This document shows, piece by piece, positions 21,350 to 29,233 of a stretch of 32,963 bases of DNA. Under the pieces are notes generated by a model, which was not told the DNA's origin, searched no databases, and was given only the letters and a program-made list of their open reading frames with translations. Every line of letters starts with the position of its first letter. Positions within the stretch are counted from its first letter, which is position 1. Both the position numbers and the translations under genes were made by a program. The stretch covers positions 1 through 32,963 of the forward strand of contig VGBZ01000029.1 in NCBI GenBank assembly GCA_016870275.1, read 5' to 3'. This stretch comes from Actinomycetota bacterium. Its GTDB lineage: Bacteria > Actinomycetota > Acidimicrobiia > Acidimicrobiales > Microtrichaceae.

Positions 21350-24322
21350 TCATCCGGGTGGCGAGGGCGTCGTGCCGCTGGCGACCAGTTGGTCATTCGC
21401 CTGCCGCACCAGGTTCCTGGCGGCTTCGACCGCCTCCTCGTAACCGGCGAGATCACCCTCCCGGAGGCGGTCCTCGGCAGCGTTGAACTGCTGATCGGCC
21501 TGGGCGAGCAGATCGGTCGGCGAATCCGTCGGTGTAGGCGCCGCACCATCAGGCACGGTGGTCGTCGTCGGCTCGAGGTCGGTCGTTTCGCCGTCGGAAG
21601 CGTCCGGTTTCGTGTCGAGCAGGTCGGCGACCGCTCGTTCCACGTTGTCGCCAAAGCCAACCCGGTCTCCTGAACTGACGACCACTCGGGTGAGGTTGAA
21701 GCGTCCGCTCTGCTCCTGTTTGGCGTAGACGGGCCTCAGGTACAACAGCGAATCCCCGAACGGGAGCGTCAGCAGGTTGCCGAACTGCACCCGGGACCCG
21801 GCCCGACCGACGAGCGCCTGATACTCCGAGACCGGCTGGTAGGTGACCATTTTCTGGTTGGCTCGCAACGGTCCGTCGACGCGGTTGTTGGGCTCGAGCT
21901 CGCCGTCGGCCCTCCGCTGGCTCATCACCACCTGAGTGAGTCGGCCGTAGTTGCTCTGGTCGTTGGCAGCGATCATGACCGCTGTCAGGTTGCGGGCGCT
22001 GTCGTCACTCGACGCCAGCACGTACGGCCGGGTGAGGACGAACTGCGGTTCCTGCCCCGGCTGCAACTGCATGAGTTGGAAGTAGGGCTCGATCCGGTCG
22101 AGTTGCCCGGCGGGCTGCGCCGGGTCGATCTCGTCGATCGTGGCGCCGCCGGCGGTGTTCGGCGGCTGCTGGGCGATGTCCCATCGATCGGAGTTGTTGA
22201 AGAAGGTGGCCGGATCGTTCTGGTGGTAGCGACCCCACGCCAGAGTCTGGGTCTTGAACAACAGCTCCGGGTAACGGAAGTGCGCCCGGATCGACTCGGG
22301 GATGTCGGTCACGAACAGTCCGGGAAACGCCTTCACGTAGGCCCGGATGATCGGGTCCTCAGCGCCGTAGAGCGTGTCGGTGAGGTAGAGGGTCACCGTT
22401 CCGTCGTAGGCATCGACCACAGCCTTGACGCTGTTTCGCAGGTAGTTGAACGCTCCGCGCTGGGTCTCCGACACTGCGGCGGCGTCGAGGGACTCCGCAT
22501 ACGGGTACGACGACGATGCGGTGTAGCCGTCGATGATGTACTTGACGCGGCCGTCGAGGAACACCGGATACGGGTCCTCATCGAGGGTGAGGAACGGCGC
22601 CACCGCCCTGACCCGCTCGCGGATGTCACGGATGAAGATGACCTTTGAGTCGCCGGTGAGGCTCCCGGAGATCAAGGGCTCGATCTCACCGAAACGCAGC
22701 GCAAAGGCCGCACGACGAACGGTGCTCCCCATGCCGACACCGGACTGCCCCGAGTAGGTGGTGGTCAGCTGATCGGAGGTGAGCTCGGTCTGCTTGGTCC
22801 CGACGATCGCATAACCGCCCATGTCCTCGCCGTGGTACAGCTCCGGCCGCTCGAGCGGGGGGACCCCGTCGTAGGTGGCTGGGATCCCGGACACCAGGAA
22901 CTCCGGCTCCCCTCTCCCGTTTGCGGTGTTGGAAGGGGCGAGAGCGCCGGCGTATCCGTGGGTGAACACGAGGTGCAGCTTCTCCCACGACGGCGCCGAG
23001 ATCCCTTGGGTGTTGAGTTCCCGGGTGGAGATGATCACGGGCTCGCGCACCGGCGCCTCATCGCCTCGCTGAACCACGTAACGGTCCACGTCGACGTCAC
23101 GGAAGGCGTAGAACTCGCGACCGAACTCGAGGTCCTGGATCGTCGGACGCATGACGCTCGGGTCGAGGACCCGTGCGTTGTCCAGGTTGCCCTGCTGGGA
23201 TGCGACCTTCTCCGCTGTGAGGTCAGAGGAGTAGACGAAGTCGACCGTCTCGACATCTGCGAGACCGACCGCTGTGCGGGTGGCGCTGATATTCCGCTCG
23301 ATGAACGGGCGCTCCTTGGCCAGTTCGGCCGGACCGACCTGGAAGCGCTGCACGAACGATGGGTAGAGGCTGCCGGCGACGATCGACAACAGCAGCCACA
23401 GGGCCACGACGATCGACGGGAGGACCCAACCTCGTCGCCAGATGTTGACGATCAGGACTATGGCCACCGCAATCGAGATCAACATCAGCATCTGAATGGC
23501 CGGGAGTCGGGCGTTCAGGTCGGTGAACCCCGCTCCGTCGAACGCCTGCCCGTCCACGGTCAGCAGCTCGAACCGCTGCAGGTAGTAGTCGAGCGCCTTG
23601 ACCAGGGCAGCGAACGCCAGAATCAACGACAGGTGGGCCTTGGCGTTGGGGGTGACGCGCTCCCCCATGGCCTGAAGGCGGATCGCACCGTTGAGGTAGT
23701 GGACGATGGCCACGACGATCGCCGTCACCAGCAGGAATCCGAAGACCCAGTCGACGACCTGGGAGAGGAACGGGAGCTTGAAGACGTAGAAGCCCAGATC
23801 CACGCCGAACTCAGGGTCGATCTCCCCGAAGGAACCGCCGAATCGGAACAACAGCCATTGCGACCACTGCGATGACACGCTGACGCCGGGGAGGATGGCC
23901 ACGAGCAACGCCAGCACGACCTCCACGAGTCGCTGCCGGCCCGAGACGAACTCGCGGTAGCGAATCAGGACCTCGTCGTCCTGGCCGGAGACCGGCAGGA
24001 AACGAGGTGCCAGACGGTCAGCGACCACCAGATTGACCCAGAGGATGGCGAAGAACACGATGGTCGCCACGGCGCCCAAGGTCACTTTGGCCGAGAGCAG
24101 CTTGCGCCAGACCGAACCGAGCCCGAGCGAGTCGAACCAGAGAATGTCGGTCCAGAAGGTGGCGATCGCCCTCAGCGACAACACCAGGACGACGAAACCG
24201 ACCAGGGACACGGCGAGAAGGATTCGCCCCCGATTGGTATGTGCACCCTTCTCACGCTCACGCCGCTTGCTCTTGCGAGCGGGCTGCGGTGGCTGATCAG
24301 GATCATCGCTCGGATAGCGCAC
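21350..24322 (-). CDS. UPF0182 family membrane protein
   Basis: A 990 aa protein of the UPF0182 family (like mycobacterial Rv3193c and Rv0064), with about seven N-terminal membrane helices (residues about 30-330; TFWTDILWFDSLGLGSVW is a family mark) and a large extracytoplasmic domain (REFYAFRDVDVDRYVV, SWEKLHLVFTHGYAG, RDIRERVRAVAPFLTLDEDPYPV, LPFGDSLLYLRPVY). Its function is unknown. The C-terminus has a Thr/Pro/Asp-rich linker and a helical segment around LLAQADQQFNAAEDRL. The start was set at GTG 24322 rather than upstream, because the upstream frame overlaps the preceding gene and a TAACCT box lies 7 nt before this GTG. In mycobacteria this family neighbours a PDZ/Lon-like protease; here that protease is two genes upstream. 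Confidence 0.93.
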   Translation of the reverse strand: MRYPSDDPDQPPQPARKSKRREREKGAHTNRGRILLAVSLVGFVVLVLSLRAIATFWTDILWFDSLGLGSVWRKLLSAKVTLGAVATIVFFAILWVNLVVADRLAPRFLPVSGQDDEVLIRYREFVSGRQRLVEVVLALLVAILPGVSVSSQWSQWLLFRFGGSFGEIDPEFGVDLGFYVFKLPFLSQVVDWVFGFLLVTAIVVAIVHYLNGAIRLQAMGERVTPNAKAHLSLILAFAALVKALDYYLQRFELLTVDGQAFDGAGFTDLNARLPAIQMLMLISIAVAIVLIVNIWRRGWVLPSIVVALWLLLSIVAGSLYPSFVQRFQVGPAELAKERPFIERNISATRTAVGLADVETVDFVYSSDLTAEKVASQQGNLDNARVLDPSVMRPTIQDLEFGREFYAFRDVDVDRYVVQRGDEAPVREPVIISTRELNTQGISAPSWEKLHLVFTHGYAGALAPSNTANGRGEPEFLVSGIPATYDGVPPLERPELYHGEDMGGYAIVGTKQTELTSDQLTTTYSGQSGVGMGSTVRRAAFALRFGEIEPLISGSLTGDSKVIFIRDIRERVRAVAPFLTLDEDPYPVFLDGRVKYIIDGYTASSSYPYAESLDAAAVSETQRGAFNYLRNSVKAVVDAYDGTVTLYLTDTLYGAEDPIIRAYVKAFPGLFVTDIPESIRAHFRYPELLFKTQTLAWGRYHQNDPATFFNNSDRWDIAQQPPNTAGGATIDEIDPAQPAGQLDRIEPYFQLMQLQPGQEPQFVLTRPYVLASSDDSARNLTAVMIAANDQSNYGRLTQVVMSQRRADGELEPNNRVDGPLRANQKMVTYQPVSEYQALVGRAGSRVQFGNLLTLPFGDSLLYLRPVYAKQEQSGRFNLTRVVVSSGDRVGFGDNVERAVADLLDTKPDASDGETTDLEPTTTTVPDGAAPTPTDSPTDLLAQADQQFNAAEDRLREGDLAGYEEAVEAARNLVRQANDQLVASGTTPSPPG

Positions 24323-24329
24323 GGCGCTG

Positions 24330-24335
24330 AGGTTA
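24330..24335 (-). promoter_or_regulatory. Candidate -10 box of leaderless UPF0182 mRNA, overlapping a stop codon
   Basis: Read on the minus strand, TAACCT lies 7 nt before GTG 24322. Its TAA is also the stop codon of the upstream coiled-coil gene. There is no ribosome site in the 10-nt gap, so either a leaderless internal promoter or reinitiation must serve the GTG. Confidence 0.45.
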
Positions 24336-26369
24336 CCGAGGAGAGGGAATGAGGATGCATCGGCATCCGGAGTGTGCCGGTGGCAACCGATCACCGGTCG
24401 GGAATGGATTCCCGACACTGACCGGACCAGCGAGCGCATTGTCCTCGGCATCGGCGCAGGGGAGGCCACCGTTGTCGACCACCCAGCACCACCGGGCGTC
24501 CGGACGGGCGGCGGCCTCCATGCCGATGGCGAACCCGGCCGCTGCGAGGTCACCGGCGGCGCCCTCGCTCTGCCCTGATCGCCACTCCCGGTAGGCCCCG
24601 CGCACCTTGCTCTGCACGCCGCTCAGGTCGAGTCCGCTCTCTGCGGCCTCATCGAGCACACGAGCGAGGTGCGCCCGCCGATGGCCCAGGAGTTCCTCGA
24701 CCTGTCGGTACAGGGAGCCGTCGTCGTCGACTGCGACTTCGACTGCGGCTGCTGGATCACTGTGAGGATCCTCGGCGGACTCGATGGACCAGAACTCCGC
24801 ACCGGCACGGGCTGCGGAGCGGAGGTCACCGAGCAGATGCCCGAGGTAGCGGGACACATCATCGACGTCACCGAGGAGCGCCTCCAATGACGGAACCTGG
24901 CGTCGGGCTCGACGGAGTTGATCGAGAACCTCGTTCTGTTCGTCGGACACAGCCCGCTTGAGCGACCGGGCGAGCGCCTCACCAATCGGGTCGAGCAGCA
25001 GGTCCCGACGATCGAGCACGCTGTCGGGGGCGTCATCGGGAGCGGAATCCTCGGGGTCGGCGGCATCCTCAGGGTCTGCGCCGGTCTCAGCGGTGGTGTC
25101 CTCGGTGGCGGCACGCACCCGCTCGAAGAGGTCGTGCACGGTTGCGTCGTCGCTGGGACCATCGGGGGCGGCCTCGGCGGTCGGGAGCGCAACGATCGGA
25201 GCCACCTCGTCGACGAGGCCGATGATCCGACGATCGAGCACCGCCTCCTCCCGGGTGATGTCGCCGTCGACAGGCAGTTCCGCCACAGCGGACGAGCTCG
25301 GGTCTTCGGTCTCGGCCTCGGTCTCGGGAGCGGTCTCGGGAGCGGTCTCGTCGGTCTCGGAGACCGGAGTTGCTGTCGGGTCCGCCACACCCGGGTCGAC
25401 GGGCGAACCACCGATCTGCGGCACCGGCCGAAGCTCGGTGGCGGCCCGGGTGATGAACTCCTCGACGCTCACGTGGGGCTGCGGTTCGAACACATCGTCG
25501 CTGTTCGACAGATCATCGACGGTGACATCGAGGGTGCTTCCGACATCACGGATCGCCGCCACGATCCGGTCCCGCTCGGCCCGAGCGGCGTCAATCCTCC
25601 TGTTGGCCTCCTGATGCCGGGCAGCGAGGCTCCGGAGGAGTTGCTCGCGGTACTCCTGAGCCTCGGCGACCATCGCCCGGCCCTCCTCGATGGCACTCTG
25701 GATCACCTCGGCTGCAGCGGTCTGCGCCTCGGACCGGATCCGCTCGGACTCGGACAGCGCAGCATTTCGTTCGACCTCGGCGGTCTCACGGATGGCCGAC
25801 GCTGCTGCTTCGGCCTCGGTGGTGCGCTCGGCCAGAATGCTCTCCGCGGCACTGAGCAGCTCGGACCGGCGAGCCTCCGCTGCGTTCCGGGTCACCTCGG
25901 AGAACTCCTCGGCCTCTCGCCGGAGGTCAGCTGCTTCGAGCGTCACCTCGGTACGGAGCCGCTTCGCCTCGGACCGGGCCGACTCGAGTTCCTCCTGCGC
26001 CGTCCGACGCGATTCCTCAGCGGCGGCGTCCGCTTCCTCCACCACCTGCGCCGCAGTGCGAGAGGCCTCCTCTCGGATCGATACCCCCGCTTCACGGGCC
26101 ACCGAGATGATCCGAGCCGTCTCCTCGCCGAGCGCCGCTGTGATCTTGGCCTCGTCGACCTCGAGAGCATCGTCAAGGTCGGCTGAAAGAGACGTCACTC
26201 GTTCCCAGAGCCGACGGTCGCGTTCCTGCCAGGTACGCAGAGCATCCGCCGCTCGACCGAGCAGCGACGTGACCTCGACCGGGTCGTACCCACGTTTGGA
26301 CCGCGAGAGGTGTTCGGCGGTCAACTGCTCCGGTCCCACGTCCGGCGGATCCGGGATCTGATCGACCAT
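24333..26369 (-). CDS. DivIVA-like coiled-coil protein with Mu gpF-like C-terminal tail
   Basis: 678 aa in four parts. Residues 15-45 (LTAEHLSRSKRGYDPVEVTSLL) resemble the DivIVA/GpsB membrane-targeting head. Residues about 50-290 are a long Glu/Ala/Arg coiled coil. A Pro/Glu/Thr/Asp linker spans about 320-450. Residues 450-678 are mostly helical and end in WCWVVDNGGLPCADAEDN, FPTG and PPAHSGCRC (Cys628, Cys638, His666, Cys669, Cys671), very like the C-terminal metal-binding motif of phage Mu gpF/SPP1 gp7 head proteins. No capsid or terminase genes are nearby, so it appears to be a cellular protein that has taken up or kept this tail. A role in cell-pole or division scaffolding is inferred from the head. 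The ATG lies 6 nt after a TAGCAT box. Confidence 0.8.
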   Translation of the reverse strand: MVDQIPDPPDVGPEQLTAEHLSRSKRGYDPVEVTSLLGRAADALRTWQERDRRLWERVTSLSADLDDALEVDEAKITAALGEETARIISVAREAGVSIREEASRTAAQVVEEADAAAEESRRTAQEELESARSEAKRLRTEVTLEAADLRREAEEFSEVTRNAAEARRSELLSAAESILAERTTEAEAAASAIRETAEVERNAALSESERIRSEAQTAAAEVIQSAIEEGRAMVAEAQEYREQLLRSLAARHQEANRRIDAARAERDRIVAAIRDVGSTLDVTVDDLSNSDDVFEPQPHVSVEEFITRAATELRPVPQIGGSPVDPGVADPTATPVSETDETAPETAPETEAETEDPSSSAVAELPVDGDITREEAVLDRRIIGLVDEVAPIVALPTAEAAPDGPSDDATVHDLFERVRAATEDTTAETGADPEDAADPEDSAPDDAPDSVLDRRDLLLDPIGEALARSLKRAVSDEQNEVLDQLRRARRQVPSLEALLGDVDDVSRYLGHLLGDLRSAARAGAEFWSIESAEDPHSDPAAAVEVAVDDDGSLYRQVEELLGHRRAHLARVLDEAAESGLDLSGVQSKVRGAYREWRSGQSEGAAGDLAAAGFAIGMEAAARPDARWCWVVDNGGLPCADAEDNALAGPVSVGNPFPTGDRLPPAHSGCRCILIPSPR

Positions 26370-26421: not shown

Positions 26422-27534
26422 TCAGGCGGTGGGCGCCCGCACCCCTCCCGGATGCAGGAACTCGATGGCATCGTTGAGCGTCTCGACGGGGACCAGTTGG
26501 AGTTCGTCGCCGGCGATCTCCTCGATGGCAGAGCGCTCGGCCGGGGGCGTGGACGCCGGATAGATGAACACCTCGACCCCCGCCCGCTTGACCGCTGCCA
26601 CCTTCTGGGCGATTCCTCCGATCGCTCCGACGGTGCCGTCGGCGAGGATCTCACCCGTCACGGCCACGTCACGACCTTCAGTCAGCGACGGCTTCACGAG
26701 TCGATCGATCACCGCCAACGCCCAGGCCAGCCCGGCCGACGGCCCCGTCACCTCACCCGAGTCGATCTCCACCTGCACGGGCGAGTCGATCCTCGGATCG
26801 GCGACGTCGACGTTCACACCGAGCACCGGGCGGTTCGGGTCGTCCGGGGCCGCACCGAGACGCACCGTGACCGTGCGCTGTGCACCCGTCGGGTCGGTCA
26901 GCCCCACCGCCACATCCTCACCGGGTCGGCGATCACCGAGGATGACGGCGATGTCATCAGGCAGGCGGACCTCGGCGCCGTCGACGCTGGTGATCACGTC
27001 GCCGGCGCTGATCAGTCCCGATGAGGGAGACGGCTCCGCCAGTCCGAGTACGCGGGCTCCCGACCCGGTGAGCATCGCCGGGTAGCCGAGGTACTCGAGG
27101 GCGACCTTGGTGGCCACGAGTTTGGACAGGTCCATGCGCTGCTGGTTGGCCTCACGATTTCCGTCGCGGCCTTCTCGCCCGTACACCTCCTCCTCGGTAC
27201 GCACTTCAATGGCGTCGTCGAGTGCGCCGCGGAGCAACAGGCCCAGTGTGGCCTGATCGATGTAGACCGTCGTGAACAGCACCTCGCCTGGATGATCGAA
27301 CGTCGGAGCGCCCGTGATCTCGACCTTTGGTTCGGCCGGCCGCAGTGAACCCGGCTGCAGGAGGAAGTACGGGAGCGGGATCAACAGCACCCCGGCGAGG
27401 ATCGCCGTCACCACGGCGAGCCCGGCCACGATCCACCAGATCCGGCGGCCCTTTCGCCGACGGCTGATCTGTGGCACCAAACGATCAGAGTCTCCGAGTG
27501 GCTCCGGCGAACTCGTTACGATGTCGTCTGTCAT
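26422..27534 (-). CDS. PDZ domain, Lon-like serine protease (YlbL type)
   Basis: A membrane-anchored protease without an ATPase, as in B. subtilis YlbL and mycobacterial Rv3194c. The 370 aa protein has a basic cytosolic start, one membrane helix (IVAGLAVVTAILAGVLLIP, about 32-50), a PDZ domain (about 160-230; SSGLISAGDVITSVDGAEV) and a Lon-type S16 domain. The catalytic Ser is in EVTGPSAGLAWAL and the catalytic Lys in GGIAQKVAAVKRAGV. The start was set at ATG 27534; the frame extends to 27846, but that part is antisense to a real small gene. The substrate is unknown. In mycobacteria it lies directly next to UPF0182, so the coiled-coil gene between them is an insertion relative to that order. 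Confidence 0.92.
   Translation of the reverse strand: MTDDIVTSSPEPLGDSDRLVPQISRRRKGRRIWWIVAGLAVVTAILAGVLLIPLPYFLLQPGSLRPAEPKVEITGAPTFDHPGEVLFTTVYIDQATLGLLLRGALDDAIEVRTEEEVYGREGRDGNREANQQRMDLSKLVATKVALEYLGYPAMLTGSGARVLGLAEPSPSSGLISAGDVITSVDGAEVRLPDDIAVILGDRRPGEDVAVGLTDPTGAQRTVTVRLGAAPDDPNRPVLGVNVDVADPRIDSPVQVEIDSGEVTGPSAGLAWALAVIDRLVKPSLTEGRDVAVTGEILADGTVGAIGGIAQKVAAVKRAGVEVFIYPASTPPAERSAIEEIAGDELQLVPVETLNDAIEFLHPGGVRAPTA
27517..27522 (+). promoter_or_regulatory. Candidate -10 box for the small membrane protein gene
   Basis: TACGAT fits TANNNT and ends 10 nt before ATG 27533, so the transcript would have a leader of only a few bases. It lies inside the 5' end of the divergent protease gene. 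Confidence 0.35.
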
Positions 27535-27829
27535 GGTCGCAGTGCTCGCCGGTGTCCTCGTGGTGCTCGTCGCCGCAATTGCTCTGGGGGTCGCAGTGTT
27601 CGGACGAACTCCCGTCCCCCAGCCTGCCACGGGATCACCACCGGCCACCGAAGCGTCTGTGACGGCACCCAGCAAGCGAGGATCCTCAGACTCTGGGTCG
27701 GTGACCATCCCGACCGCAGTGCGCGTTCGTTCCGGGCTGTTGTTGCTCCTCGCCGCGTTGGCCATCGCCGGCTTCGTGGGCGTCGTCGGCAGCGTCCTCG
27801 TGGTCGGACTCGGGCTGCTCATCGGCTGA
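27533..27829 (+). CDS. Small two-helix membrane protein, unknown function
   Basis: A 98 aa protein with an N-terminal membrane helix (residues 2-24, VAVLAGVLVVLVAAIALGVAVF), a Pro/Ser/Thr-rich loop of about 40 residues and a second helix at the C-terminus (LLLLLAALAIAGFVGVVGSVLVVGLGLL). Codons are strongly GC-ending, unlike the opposite strand here, which supports a real gene. The ATG overlaps the ATG of the PDZ protease head to head (CATG). I do not recognise a family. Its divergent start and membrane location make it a possible partner or substrate of the protease; this is inference. Confidence 0.65.
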   Translation: MVAVLAGVLVVLVAAIALGVAVFGRTPVPQPATGSPPATEASVTAPSKRGSSDSGSVTIPTAVRVRSGLLLLLAALAIAGFVGVVGSVLVVGLGLLIG

Positions 27830-27918
27830 CAGAGCCACGAGACCATCGCTGGCGTCGACTGCGTCGTGCGAGACGGATGCGGAGTTCTCGACCGCTGCTC
27901 ACAGATGAGTTCTCACGA

Positions 27919-27947: not shown

Positions 27948-28463
27948 TCAGCGGCCGAACAAGCCCCGACGCGCCGGCTTCTCGTCTGCAGCCGGCTCAG
28001 CGGGCGCAGGCGCAGGCGCAGGCGCCGGCGCAGGCGCAGGCGCAGGCGCAGACGCCGGCGCGCTGAACGCTGGGGAGGGAGCAGGAGCTGCCGCCGGAGC
28101 AGGAGCTGGAGCCGGTGCTGGAGCAGGAGCTGGAGCCGGTGCTGGAGCCGGTGCCGGTGCAGCTGCCGGAGCCGGTGCCGGTGCAGCTGCCGGAGCCGGT
28201 GCCGGAGCAGCTGCCGGAGCCGGTGCCGGAGCAGCTGCCGGTGCCGGTGCCGGGCGAGATGCTCCCGGGTTCAGGGCCTGCAATTCGACCTTGTAGACGG
28301 TGCGAATGTCGAACTTGATCTCCTCGAGAGCAAAGAGGCGCGTGTTGTCGACCCCCTGCTCGTTGCGGAGCTTCTCCACGAACGAAACCGCCTCCGCCAA
28401 GGAATTGAACTGGTTGTAGCCGGGGCTGCCCCCAGGGGTCTGGAAAATCACCATGTGCGACAC
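27948..28463 (-). CDS. Small protein with N-terminal domain and long Pro-Ala rod
   Basis: 171 aa. Residues 1-69 (MVIFQTPGGSPGYNQFNSL, then EAVSFVEKLRNEQGVDN and RLFALEEIKFDIRTVYKVE) look like a compact mixed domain of unknown family. Residues 70 to about 155 are almost only alternating Pro and Ala, which forms a stiff extended rod. The end is EPAADEKPARRGLFGR, a short basic, Gly/Phe tail. GTG 28463 has a strong AGGAGG 5 nt upstream, and a TACACT -10 box sits further up; the frame beyond is shadow. No signal peptide is seen, so it is probably cytosolic. The rod may act as a spacer linking the small domain to a partner bound by the tail; this is inference. Confidence 0.75.
   Translation of the reverse strand: MSHMVIFQTPGGSPGYNQFNSLAEAVSFVEKLRNEQGVDNTRLFALEEIKFDIRTVYKVELQALNPGASRPAPAPAAAPAPAPAAAPAPAPAAAPAPAPAAAPAPAPAPAPAPAPAPAPAPAPAAAPAPSPAFSAPASAPAPAPAPAPAPAPAPAEPAADEKPARRGLFGR
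28005..28250 (-). repeat. Tandem repeats coding the Pro-Ala rod
   Basis: Two repeat types lie side by side: 6-nt GCAGGC-type steps (plus strand, 28005-28060) and 24-nt units of the GCCGGTGCCGGTGCAGCTG type, about four copies between 28145 and 28250, encoding APAPAPAA. Such tracts slip easily in replication, so rod length probably varies between strains. Confidence 0.75.
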
Positions 28464-28468
28464 GAGGT

Positions 28469-28474
28469 CCTCCT
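28469..28474 (-). promoter_or_regulatory. Shine-Dalgarno AGGAGG fixing the GTG start at 28463
   Basis: A consensus AGGAGG on the minus strand, 5 nt before GTG 28463. It decides this start over the longer frame that begins at 28526. Confidence 0.8.
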
Positions 28475-28494
28475 GCCTGTTCGACGTGGGCCAC

Positions 28495-28500
28495 AGTGTA
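28495..28500 (-). promoter_or_regulatory. Candidate -10 box of the Pro-Ala rod gene
   Basis: On the minus strand TACACT, the same hexamer as before the cyclase gene, would start a transcript near 28488 with a leader of about 25 nt that contains the AGGAGG site. No clear -35 is seen at 17 nt. Confidence 0.45.
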
Positions 28501-28525
28501 GGCGTGCGGTTCGGAGTGAATGCCA

Positions 28526-29233
28526 ATGACTGACGAACCGAGCGGTCGGGTCCGGCGGGCTCGGGTCGTCTTCAGCGGCCACCTCGGTGACGTCGTGACC
28601 GTCCGATCATCGCTGGAGGACCCGGATCCAGTGGTTCGTGGATCGGCGCTCGGTGCGGCGGCCCGAATCGGGATCCTCGCGCCGGCCGACCTCGCTCGGG
28701 GACTGCGCGACAGCGATCCGGACGTCAGGACCAGAGCGTGCCGGATCGCAGCGGCTCACCCCGGAGAACTCGGTGAGTCCCACACGGCGCTCGTGGAGCG
28801 GCTCGACGATACCGACCCTGTGGCAGAGGTCGCCTGCTTCGCCTGCGGCGAGCGAACGGACCTCAACGACACCGGAACCCGTCGACTCATCGAGATCGCC
28901 AACACACACGGCGATCCTCTCGTCCGCGAGGCGGCCGTGGCGGCAATCGGGTCGCTGGCGGGACTCGGGGTCCTCGATCGGCACGGCCTGACCGCCGCCG
29001 GCTGCGACGCCGTCATCGCCGGCGGCTCCGACATCGCCCCGGTTCGCCGCCGGGCTGCGGTGGCCGCAGCAGCGTTCGAGGGTCCGACTGTGGACCAACT
29101 GCTCGACCGGCTGGTCACCGATCGGGACCAACAGGTTCGCCAGATCGCCGAGGATCTACGAGCGATCGAGTCGCCAGTGGCGTGGATGGATCGGCCCCGT
29201 CCCGGCAGTGGTGATGCGCCGGGACGGGGCTGA
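28526..29233 (+). CDS. HEAT-repeat protein
   Basis: The 235 aa protein consists of about six HEAT-like helical repeats, such as LEDPDPVVRGSALGAAARIG, LRDSDPDVRTRACRIAAAHP and HGDPLVREAAVAAIGSLAG, each with the Asp-Pro-x-Val-Arg turn. PBS-lyase-type HEAT proteins use this fold to bind proteins or as scaffolds; no catalytic motif is seen. ATG 28526 has GGAG 9 nt upstream, whereas ATG 28520 has only 3 nt, so 28526 was chosen. The 3' end carries a strong hairpin that is also translated (RPRPGSGDAPGRG). It is a single gene, divergent from the Pro-Ala rod gene. The partner is unknown. Confidence 0.85.
   Translation: MTDEPSGRVRRARVVFSGHLGDVVTVRSSLEDPDPVVRGSALGAAARIGILAPADLARGLRDSDPDVRTRACRIAAAHPGELGESHTALVERLDDTDPVAEVACFACGERTDLNDTGTRRLIEIANTHGDPLVREAAVAAIGSLAGLGVLDRHGLTAAGCDAVIAGGSDIAPVRRRAAVAAAAFEGPTVDQLLDRLVTDRDQQVRQIAEDLRAIESPVAWMDRPRPGSGDAPGRG
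29194..29230. terminator. Strong hairpin at the 3' end of the HEAT gene
   Basis: GCCCCGTCCCGGC (29194-29206) and GCCGGGACGGGGC (29218-29230) form a perfect 13-bp stem with an 11-nt loop, ending directly before the stop of the HEAT gene. It also faces the end of the liv operon 26 bp away, so it may stop transcription from both sides. Confidence 0.75.

Follow-up and report, generated by a model that had tools for sequence, protein, structure and literature searches.

DivIVA is reported to seek negative curvature and to act as a cue for partners (PMC8872289). GpsB, FilP, Scy and PolyDIV are likewise DivIVA-superfamily scaffolds with altered C-terminal parts, and the alterations described in the accessible text of that account are coiled-coil changes or repeats of the DivIVA domain, with no phage-derived globular domain among them (PMC9858780). 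The function of the MuF domain was stated as unknown by Jamet and co-workers, in whose account gp7 of phage SPP1 is the MuF protein studied most (PMC5576092). SPP1 gp7 is reported to bind the portal and to be carried into the procapsid; particles are still formed in its absence, of which only about 25% are infectious (PMC6316719). A literature search, with subscription papers and preprints outside its scope, returned no described fusion of DivIVA and MuF, and the texts found on DivIVA in Acidimicrobiia, on DivIVA with head morphogenesis and on domesticated head proteins described no such case. DivIVA scaffolds and MuF domains are each known; an inherited core gene in which the two are fused appears to be new. 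Encapsulins are a further case of a phage head protein that now has a permanent role in the cell; they have the shell-forming capsid fold, whereas the case described here would be that of a minor head protein joined to a scaffold of the cytoskeleton.

The window (the whole stretch of 32,963 nucleotides analysed, contig VGBZ01000029.1) contains a complete reading frame for such a protein, here termed DivIVA-MuF; its parts and its two neighbours are summarized in Table 1. We regard this architecture, a DivIVA head and coiled coil joined by a linker to a MuF-fold domain, as almost certain.

Table 1. Coordinates of DivIVA-MuF, its predicted parts and its neighbouring genes in the window
Feature	Position	Strand	Basis or remark
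UPF0182 membrane protein	21350..24322	-	PF03699, 760 bits; next downstream of DivIVA-MuF gene
DivIVA-MuF gene, 678 aa	24333..26369	-	Open frame, ATG at 26369 to TAA at 24335-24333
DivIVA head, residues 1-68	26166..26369	-	PF05103; solved DivIVA and Wag31 heads matched
Long coiled-coil helix, residues 82-287	25509..26126	-	One helix in full-length model, pLDDT mostly 70-85
Acidic linker, residues 288-447, disordered for the most part by prediction	25029..25508	-	pLDDT <50; charge
Conserved short linker helix, residues 408-424	25098..25148	-	Model, pLDDT about 75; motif V-x-x-L-F-[AE]-[RK]-[LIV]-[RK]
MuF-fold domain (predicted), residues about 448-678	24336..25028	-	AlphaFold2, viral fold matches, phrog_2662, hhalign
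Cys/His tail, residues 629-678	24336..24485	-	Candidate metal ligands C638, H666, C669, C671
PDZ-Lon protease	26422..27846	-	PF05362 and PF13180; 52 nt upstream of DivIVA-MuF gene

A DivIVA-like head had been proposed in an earlier reading made from the letters of the window (hereafter the sequence-only reading), and is upheld by profile searches. Residues 13-142 of the window protein match PF05103 (DivIVA) at 29.5 bits against a curated cut-off of 28, and a profile built from 34 heads of the family (33 from a motif search of 38 loci, and the window) finds the solved heads of DivIVA (2WUJ, E 1.7e-12) and Wag31 (6LFA, E 5e-9); PF05103 is matched by all of these 34 chosen heads at E up to 0.01. 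Among the five loci without a head in the motif search, a head is visible by eye in two (L068, L080), one (L022) aligns to the window protein from residue 1, one (L069) is cut by a contig end, and in one (L073) no head was seen. The genome of the window also encodes a separate DivIVA protein adjoining a SepF-like gene (SepF by eye), so that DivIVA-MuF is a second scaffold and not the sole DivIVA of the genome.

As in DivIVA and Wag31 (PF05103), the conserved N-terminal head is followed by a long coiled coil, a trait of the DivIVA superfamily; the coil had been put at 240 residues, and is present at a modelled length of about 206. Unlike DivIVA and Wag31, DivIVA-MuF has a further domain, of about 230 residues and with a predicted MuF fold, at the end of a long acidic linker, and its gene is placed in a cluster with the genes for UPF0182 and the PDZ-Lon protease. 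The full-length model (45 sequences) has a mean pLDDT of 74.8 and a pTM of 0.44, values in keeping with separate parts that are joined by a floppy linker. Residues 286-407 and 427-441 have pLDDT below 50, and the net charge of residues 286-455 is -36. Of 45 members of full length, 33 have the motif of the short linker helix; a narrower form of this motif reads V-x-x-L-F-A-[RK]-[LI]-[RK]. A DNA pattern written strictly for the motif, to which the window's own version does not conform, is found at 12 places in 11 of the 61 nearest genomes, 11 of these places lying inside the DivIVA-MuF family and the twelfth at G040:C111; the reversed pattern, taken as control, gave 2 matches. This conserved helix is a second candidate docking site.

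For the C-terminal part, AlphaFold2 gave a compact model of residues 456-678 (80 sequences; pLDDT 92.8, pTM 0.89), with which Foldseek returned 63 viral matches at E up to 1e-3 (best E 1e-6). The named viral neighbours among the 50 listed of these matches are mostly portal, head-morphogenesis and minor-capsid proteins, the exceptions being a zeta-toxin protein, an ADP-ribosyltransferase, a capsid maturation protease and two uncharacterised proteins. TM-scores by query length range from 0.27 to 0.75 and rmsd from 4 to 17 among the 50 listed; the highest TM-score belongs to an unnamed entry and the best portal protein among the matches listed reaches 0.69, predicted structures being compared with predicted structures throughout. 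With the full-length model as query, the viral neighbours were again mostly of these kinds. Sequence and fold searches of the PDB returned designed, ribosomal or generic helical proteins and no MuF entry, although one may exist there.

At the level of sequence, PHROGs returned no head-protein match with the whole 678-residue protein; the signal appears with the domain alone as query, i.e. a match to phrog_2662 (phage portal) with the last 95 residues (E 2.9e-5) and with the last 222 residues (E 1.9e-7). The same family is matched by all 26 members of the family alignment at E up to 1 (best 1.8e-15), and PF04233 by nine of the 26 at E up to 1 (best 3.6e-5); the window protein, searched whole, has no match to PF04233 and hence none at the Pfam gathering score. 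Aligned by hhalign, the cell family and 19 MuF sequences from viral contigs match with a probability of 99.4% over 130 columns, a test that is biased because these viral loci were fetched with patterns from the tail; with the tail removed, the probability falls to 27% (P 6.7e-4). The fold search is independent of the tail patterns. A tblastn search of phage records with two family domains led to a portal protein at E 0.1 for one and to no record for the other. A match to PF16859 (TetR_C_11; 18.4 bits, cut-off 32), below cut-off and seen in one of the 26 members, was set aside as a helical-bundle artefact. Across the 61 nearest genomes one match to PF04233 lies above cut-off (G048:C61), and the family genes of that genome are located elsewhere (C33, C164). 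In another relative, a portal-MuF-like frame without a match to the DivIVA head (L237, G060:C73) is possibly a real prophage gene.

The weakness of the sequence signal without the tail, and the generic helical bundles returned by a second fold search of the PDB (best Z 7.2), would also be compatible with chance or convergence, in which only a short Cys/His knuckle is MuF-like and the rest is an unrelated helical bundle. We consider this quite improbable, as the fold matches span 228 to 332 alignment columns (gaps included) for a domain of 223 residues, with TM-scores of up to 0.75 among the matches listed; as six of 25 tail-trimmed members (the 26 without L035, which was mis-trimmed; the window protein is not among the six) still match the portal-MuF family phrog_2662, the best at 3.5e-5; and as the match of the window protein with its last 222 residues covers residues 82-220 of that fragment (83-221 of the domain in the search with the family members) and so reaches beyond the tail. 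From the models we conclude that residues about 448-678 form a predicted MuF-fold domain. The relationship to phage MuF that had been judged by eye is therefore borne out by phrog_2662, hhalign and fold matches; the tail does resemble MuF as had been noted, with the correction that derivation from phage applies to the entire C-terminal domain, some 230 residues long. The protein is termed MuF-derived, and not a phage MuF protein, because the window protein lacks a PF04233 match and has no phage context.

Compared with phage MuF proteins (PF04233; SPP1 gp7, Mu gpF) and portal-MuF fusions (phrog_2662), DivIVA-MuF shares the predicted fold of the whole domain and R, W, C and PPAH-GC-C residues (part of this motif having itself served to pick the phage set); a Glu that hardly varies in the phage set (E134) does not belong to the positions conserved in the cell set. 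Unlike phage MuF, DivIVA-MuF is fused to DivIVA, acidic, and located outside phage, without a recognised portal gene beside it. In contrast to the MuF polymorphic toxins, no toxin domain follows the MuF domain, and the protein stops seven residues past its last Cys. The net charge of the whole MuF domain of the window protein is -14.

A domain of phage origin on a polar scaffold could in principle have kept a phage DNA-binding activity, such that a single polypeptide would bridge the pole membrane and the chromosome, as the RacA-DivIVA and ParB-DivIVA pairs do. A head with a long coil fits a tether; the title of one cited paper names SPP1 gp7 as a DNA-binding protein, DivIVA is reported to tether the origin region in Corynebacterium and to interact with ParB (PMC8872289), and RacA is reported as a DNA-membrane anchor. 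The cell domain is acidic, which lowers the likelihood that it binds DNA directly: the last 140 residues have a median net charge of -9 in the cell family (-15 to 3, 80 members) against 0 in phage (-14 to 7, n=19), although a local basic patch is possible. A DNA tether is rated lower for this reason, and is in our view unlikely.

The Cys/His tail had been read as a possible metal-binding module with candidate ligands Cys628, Cys638, Cys669, Cys671 and His666. All but one of these positions are conserved, the exception being Cys628 (conserved in just 18 of 143 domains). Equivalents of C669 and C671 are present in every one of the 143 distinct domains extending to the profile end, and all five candidate ligands of the family in 103 (100 counted, and three with C-x3-C spacing recounted by eye). 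Exactly one ligand is missing in the other 40, i.e. the second Cys in 27 (the window included), the first Cys in eight and the His in five, and no domain lacks two. This pattern would suit a four-ligand zinc site. The absence of double losses has a P of about 0.06 under independent losses, with relatedness ignored and the eight tail-lost or degenerate loci left out; it is not relied on here because the domain set was chosen to reach the profile end.

The tail is absent in seven loci of six genomes (G191, G233 with two loci, G400, G058, G048, G036), where the protein keeps head and MuF body and ends after the helical body, and it is degenerate in G008, with only the last two cysteines kept. A tail hidden by a frameshift was looked for in these eight loci, in all three forward frames over a stretch that starts 150 nt ahead of the stop codon and runs to 450 nt beyond it; the only tail-like stretch found was G008's own degenerate one. 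The candidate metal site, judged from its occurrence across the family, is common but dispensable, and metal binding is not taken as the core function since the tail is missing in several lineages; the candidate ligands of the sequence-only reading, Cys628 excepted, are widespread, and metal binding as the point of the protein is weakened. The tail-less scaffolds include L221 and L236 (G036:C67), with head, linker motif and MuF body, located between PDZ-Lon and UPF0182, and both complete clusters of genome G233 (L229, L230).

The same losses bear on the idea of a metal or redox sensor, in which zinc or oxidation would be sensed at the Cys/His site and a signal passed on to the scaffold or a neighbouring histidine kinase. 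The two last cysteines of every tail-bearing domain, the absence of domains that have lost two ligands, and a kinase upstream in 27 loci are in its favour, but tails are absent or degenerate in eight loci with none hidden in the forward frames, the double-loss pattern (P about 0.06) ignores relatedness and leaves out these eight loci, and a structural zinc site explains the ligand pattern equally well. A sensor is therefore considered slightly less probable than a DNA tether.

Some part of the protein is matched in 54 of the 61 nearest genomes (head or coil only in G028, G033, G041 and G060). In a sample of the phylum, searched with a profile that includes diverged members, the family was found in 67 of 396 genomes, comprising 38 of 40 in the order, all 11 in the rest of the class (49 of 51 for the class) and 18 of 345 elsewhere in the phylum; three genomes in the class carry diverged copies for which the wider profile was needed. 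Two further candidates (G384, G417) were rejected as members, their frames being glycosyltransferase-like and not among the wider-profile matches. The carriers among named genomes (the best 80 of 337 matches) are mostly bins named Acidimicrobiales, Acidimicrobiaceae, Acidimicrobiia or plainly Actinomycetota, Actinomycetes or Actinobacteria, and also Acidiferrimicrobium sp. IK and Aciditerrimonas ferrireducens MV1; two of these best 80 are titled Acidobacteria, and one of the two is a contig already represented by G012, which belongs to the window's own family. The class is inferred to be Acidimicrobiia.

In a maximum-likelihood tree, 30 cell sequences are separated from 19 phage MuF sequences with support 97/92. 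If the phage side is taken as outside (the root is not fixed), the cell sequences from outside the class branch first, which is the pattern that vertical descent would give, although L066 and L068, which come from other orders of this class, are placed within the order at modest support (86/79). The sequence-only reading had noted the absence of phage genes nearby, and ten other proteins of the window compared with PHROGs did indeed match no head, tail or packaging family; two of them match PHROGs of unknown function (a DedA-like protein and the Lon protein).

A prophage remnant recently fused to a DivIVA gene has in its favour that, in one survey, 96% of the muf genes in bacterial genomes were tied to prophages or their remnants (PMC5576092). 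This explanation is rejected on synteny, descent and neighbours and retains next to no credibility: the architecture and its place are the same across the class and in other classes, the cell sequences form one clade in the tree, and no structural phage family was found among the ten window proteins scanned. The architecture recurs at the same place in relatives, as an old chromosomal gene in nearly the whole class with a constant UPF0182 neighbour; far from being an insertion confined to this genome, it is the standing arrangement of the class. DivIVA-MuF, as far as its distribution and phylogeny indicate, is an inherited chromosomal gene and not prophage debris, and a single ancient domestication of the MuF domain is very probable.

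Such a distribution is also relevant to an anti-phage decoy, in which MuF domains held at the membrane would capture the portal proteins of an incoming phage and so disturb the assembly of virions. The fold match to portal-region proteins would allow for it, and defence by blocking virion assembly has been reported (PMC10884400). Defence genes, however, are usually patchy in distribution, unlike this near-universal and inherited gene with its conserved place among envelope genes, and we consider a decoy highly improbable.

In the window, UPF0182 starts 10 nt after the DivIVA-MuF stop codon if the GTG at 24322 is its start, as seems likely. UPF0182 is encoded on the same strand within 1.5 kb downstream in all 77 judgeable loci of named genomes (80 loci, the best 80 of 337), next downstream within about 1.1 kb in 19 of 20 loci (the 20th meets a contig end), and downstream in all 18 real loci of a further set. 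On the upstream side, 63 of the named loci (from the best 80 of 337) could be judged, and 47 of these have a PDZ-Lon gene at a distance of no more than 600 nt. UPF0182 is far commoner than the scaffold (258 against 67 of the 396 phylum genomes) and hence does not need it in most of the phylum. The sequence-only reading had described the gene as splitting a pair that is adjacent in mycobacteria; DivIVA-MuF was not found in 17 UPF0182 stretches from elsewhere in the phylum, and in five of these 17 the PDZ-Lon frame abuts UPF0182 without it. Genome G233, related at class level, contains the PDZ-Lon/DivIVA-MuF/UPF0182 cluster twice, on different contigs (L229, L230) and with scaffolds 57% identical, which speaks for a functional unit. 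For UPF0182, no function was found in the titles and abstract openings covered by the literature search.

A membrane histidine kinase is encoded upstream of, or between genes at, 27 loci (e.g. L033:10324-12921, L075:1320-4238, and 25 more), and in 14 of the 62 loci with at least 3.5 kb of upstream sequence. HAMP, PAS, HisKA and HATPase domains were found in the six kinases examined; a receiver protein accompanies the kinase in six loci, and the domains of two receivers were examined as well. In the four loci of the window's genus that show both genes (the window, L021, L022, L023) PDZ-Lon comes directly, with no kinase.

For the role of DivIVA-MuF we propose that a MuF domain was captured once, long ago, from a tailed phage onto a DivIVA-superfamily membrane-curvature scaffold. 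The head would settle on curved membrane at the pole or septum, the protein would dimerise or oligomerise through its coil, and the MuF body would serve as an end for protein docking, at which the UPF0182/PDZ-Lon envelope proteins are brought together and, where a kinase is encoded beside the gene, possibly the membrane histidine kinase as well; the metal tail may stabilise the docking domain, yet would be dispensable. A transfer of docking is the simplest reading because the MuF protein of phage SPP1 sits on the portal ring and because the presumed partners are encoded next door. The gene order shows linkage and not contact, and a function as adaptor for UPF0182/PDZ-Lon is put forward tentatively, as somewhat short of an even chance. 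The explanation as a whole (a curvature scaffold of the DivIVA superfamily whose MuF end was captured once from a tailed phage and docks UPF0182/PDZ-Lon) we judge to be evenly balanced between right and wrong. The same even weighing applies to its historical form, in which a portal-docking MuF domain of a phage and DivIVA would have been joined before the class split from its sisters and have become part of the core envelope machinery of Acidimicrobiia and of some related classes, together with UPF0182/PDZ-Lon.

MuF has so far been read as a property of phage, and is encountered here in a near-universal inherited gene of a bacterial class, on a polarity scaffold. If the explanation is true, this would be a permanent use of MuF that is neither toxin nor virion and a new route from phage head parts to cell architecture, and a minor head protein would join the small number of structural components of phages that have become permanent machinery of the cell. 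UPF0182 gains a candidate partner, and the compact domain offers itself for learning what the MuF fold does.

Adjoining PDZ-Lon in the window, a further frame (27948-28526, minus strand) encodes a small protein without a Pfam match at E up to 0.001; its head, about 75 residues long, is conserved and is followed by an extended tail of Pro-Ala repeats, and this head recurs beside the cluster in several relatives.
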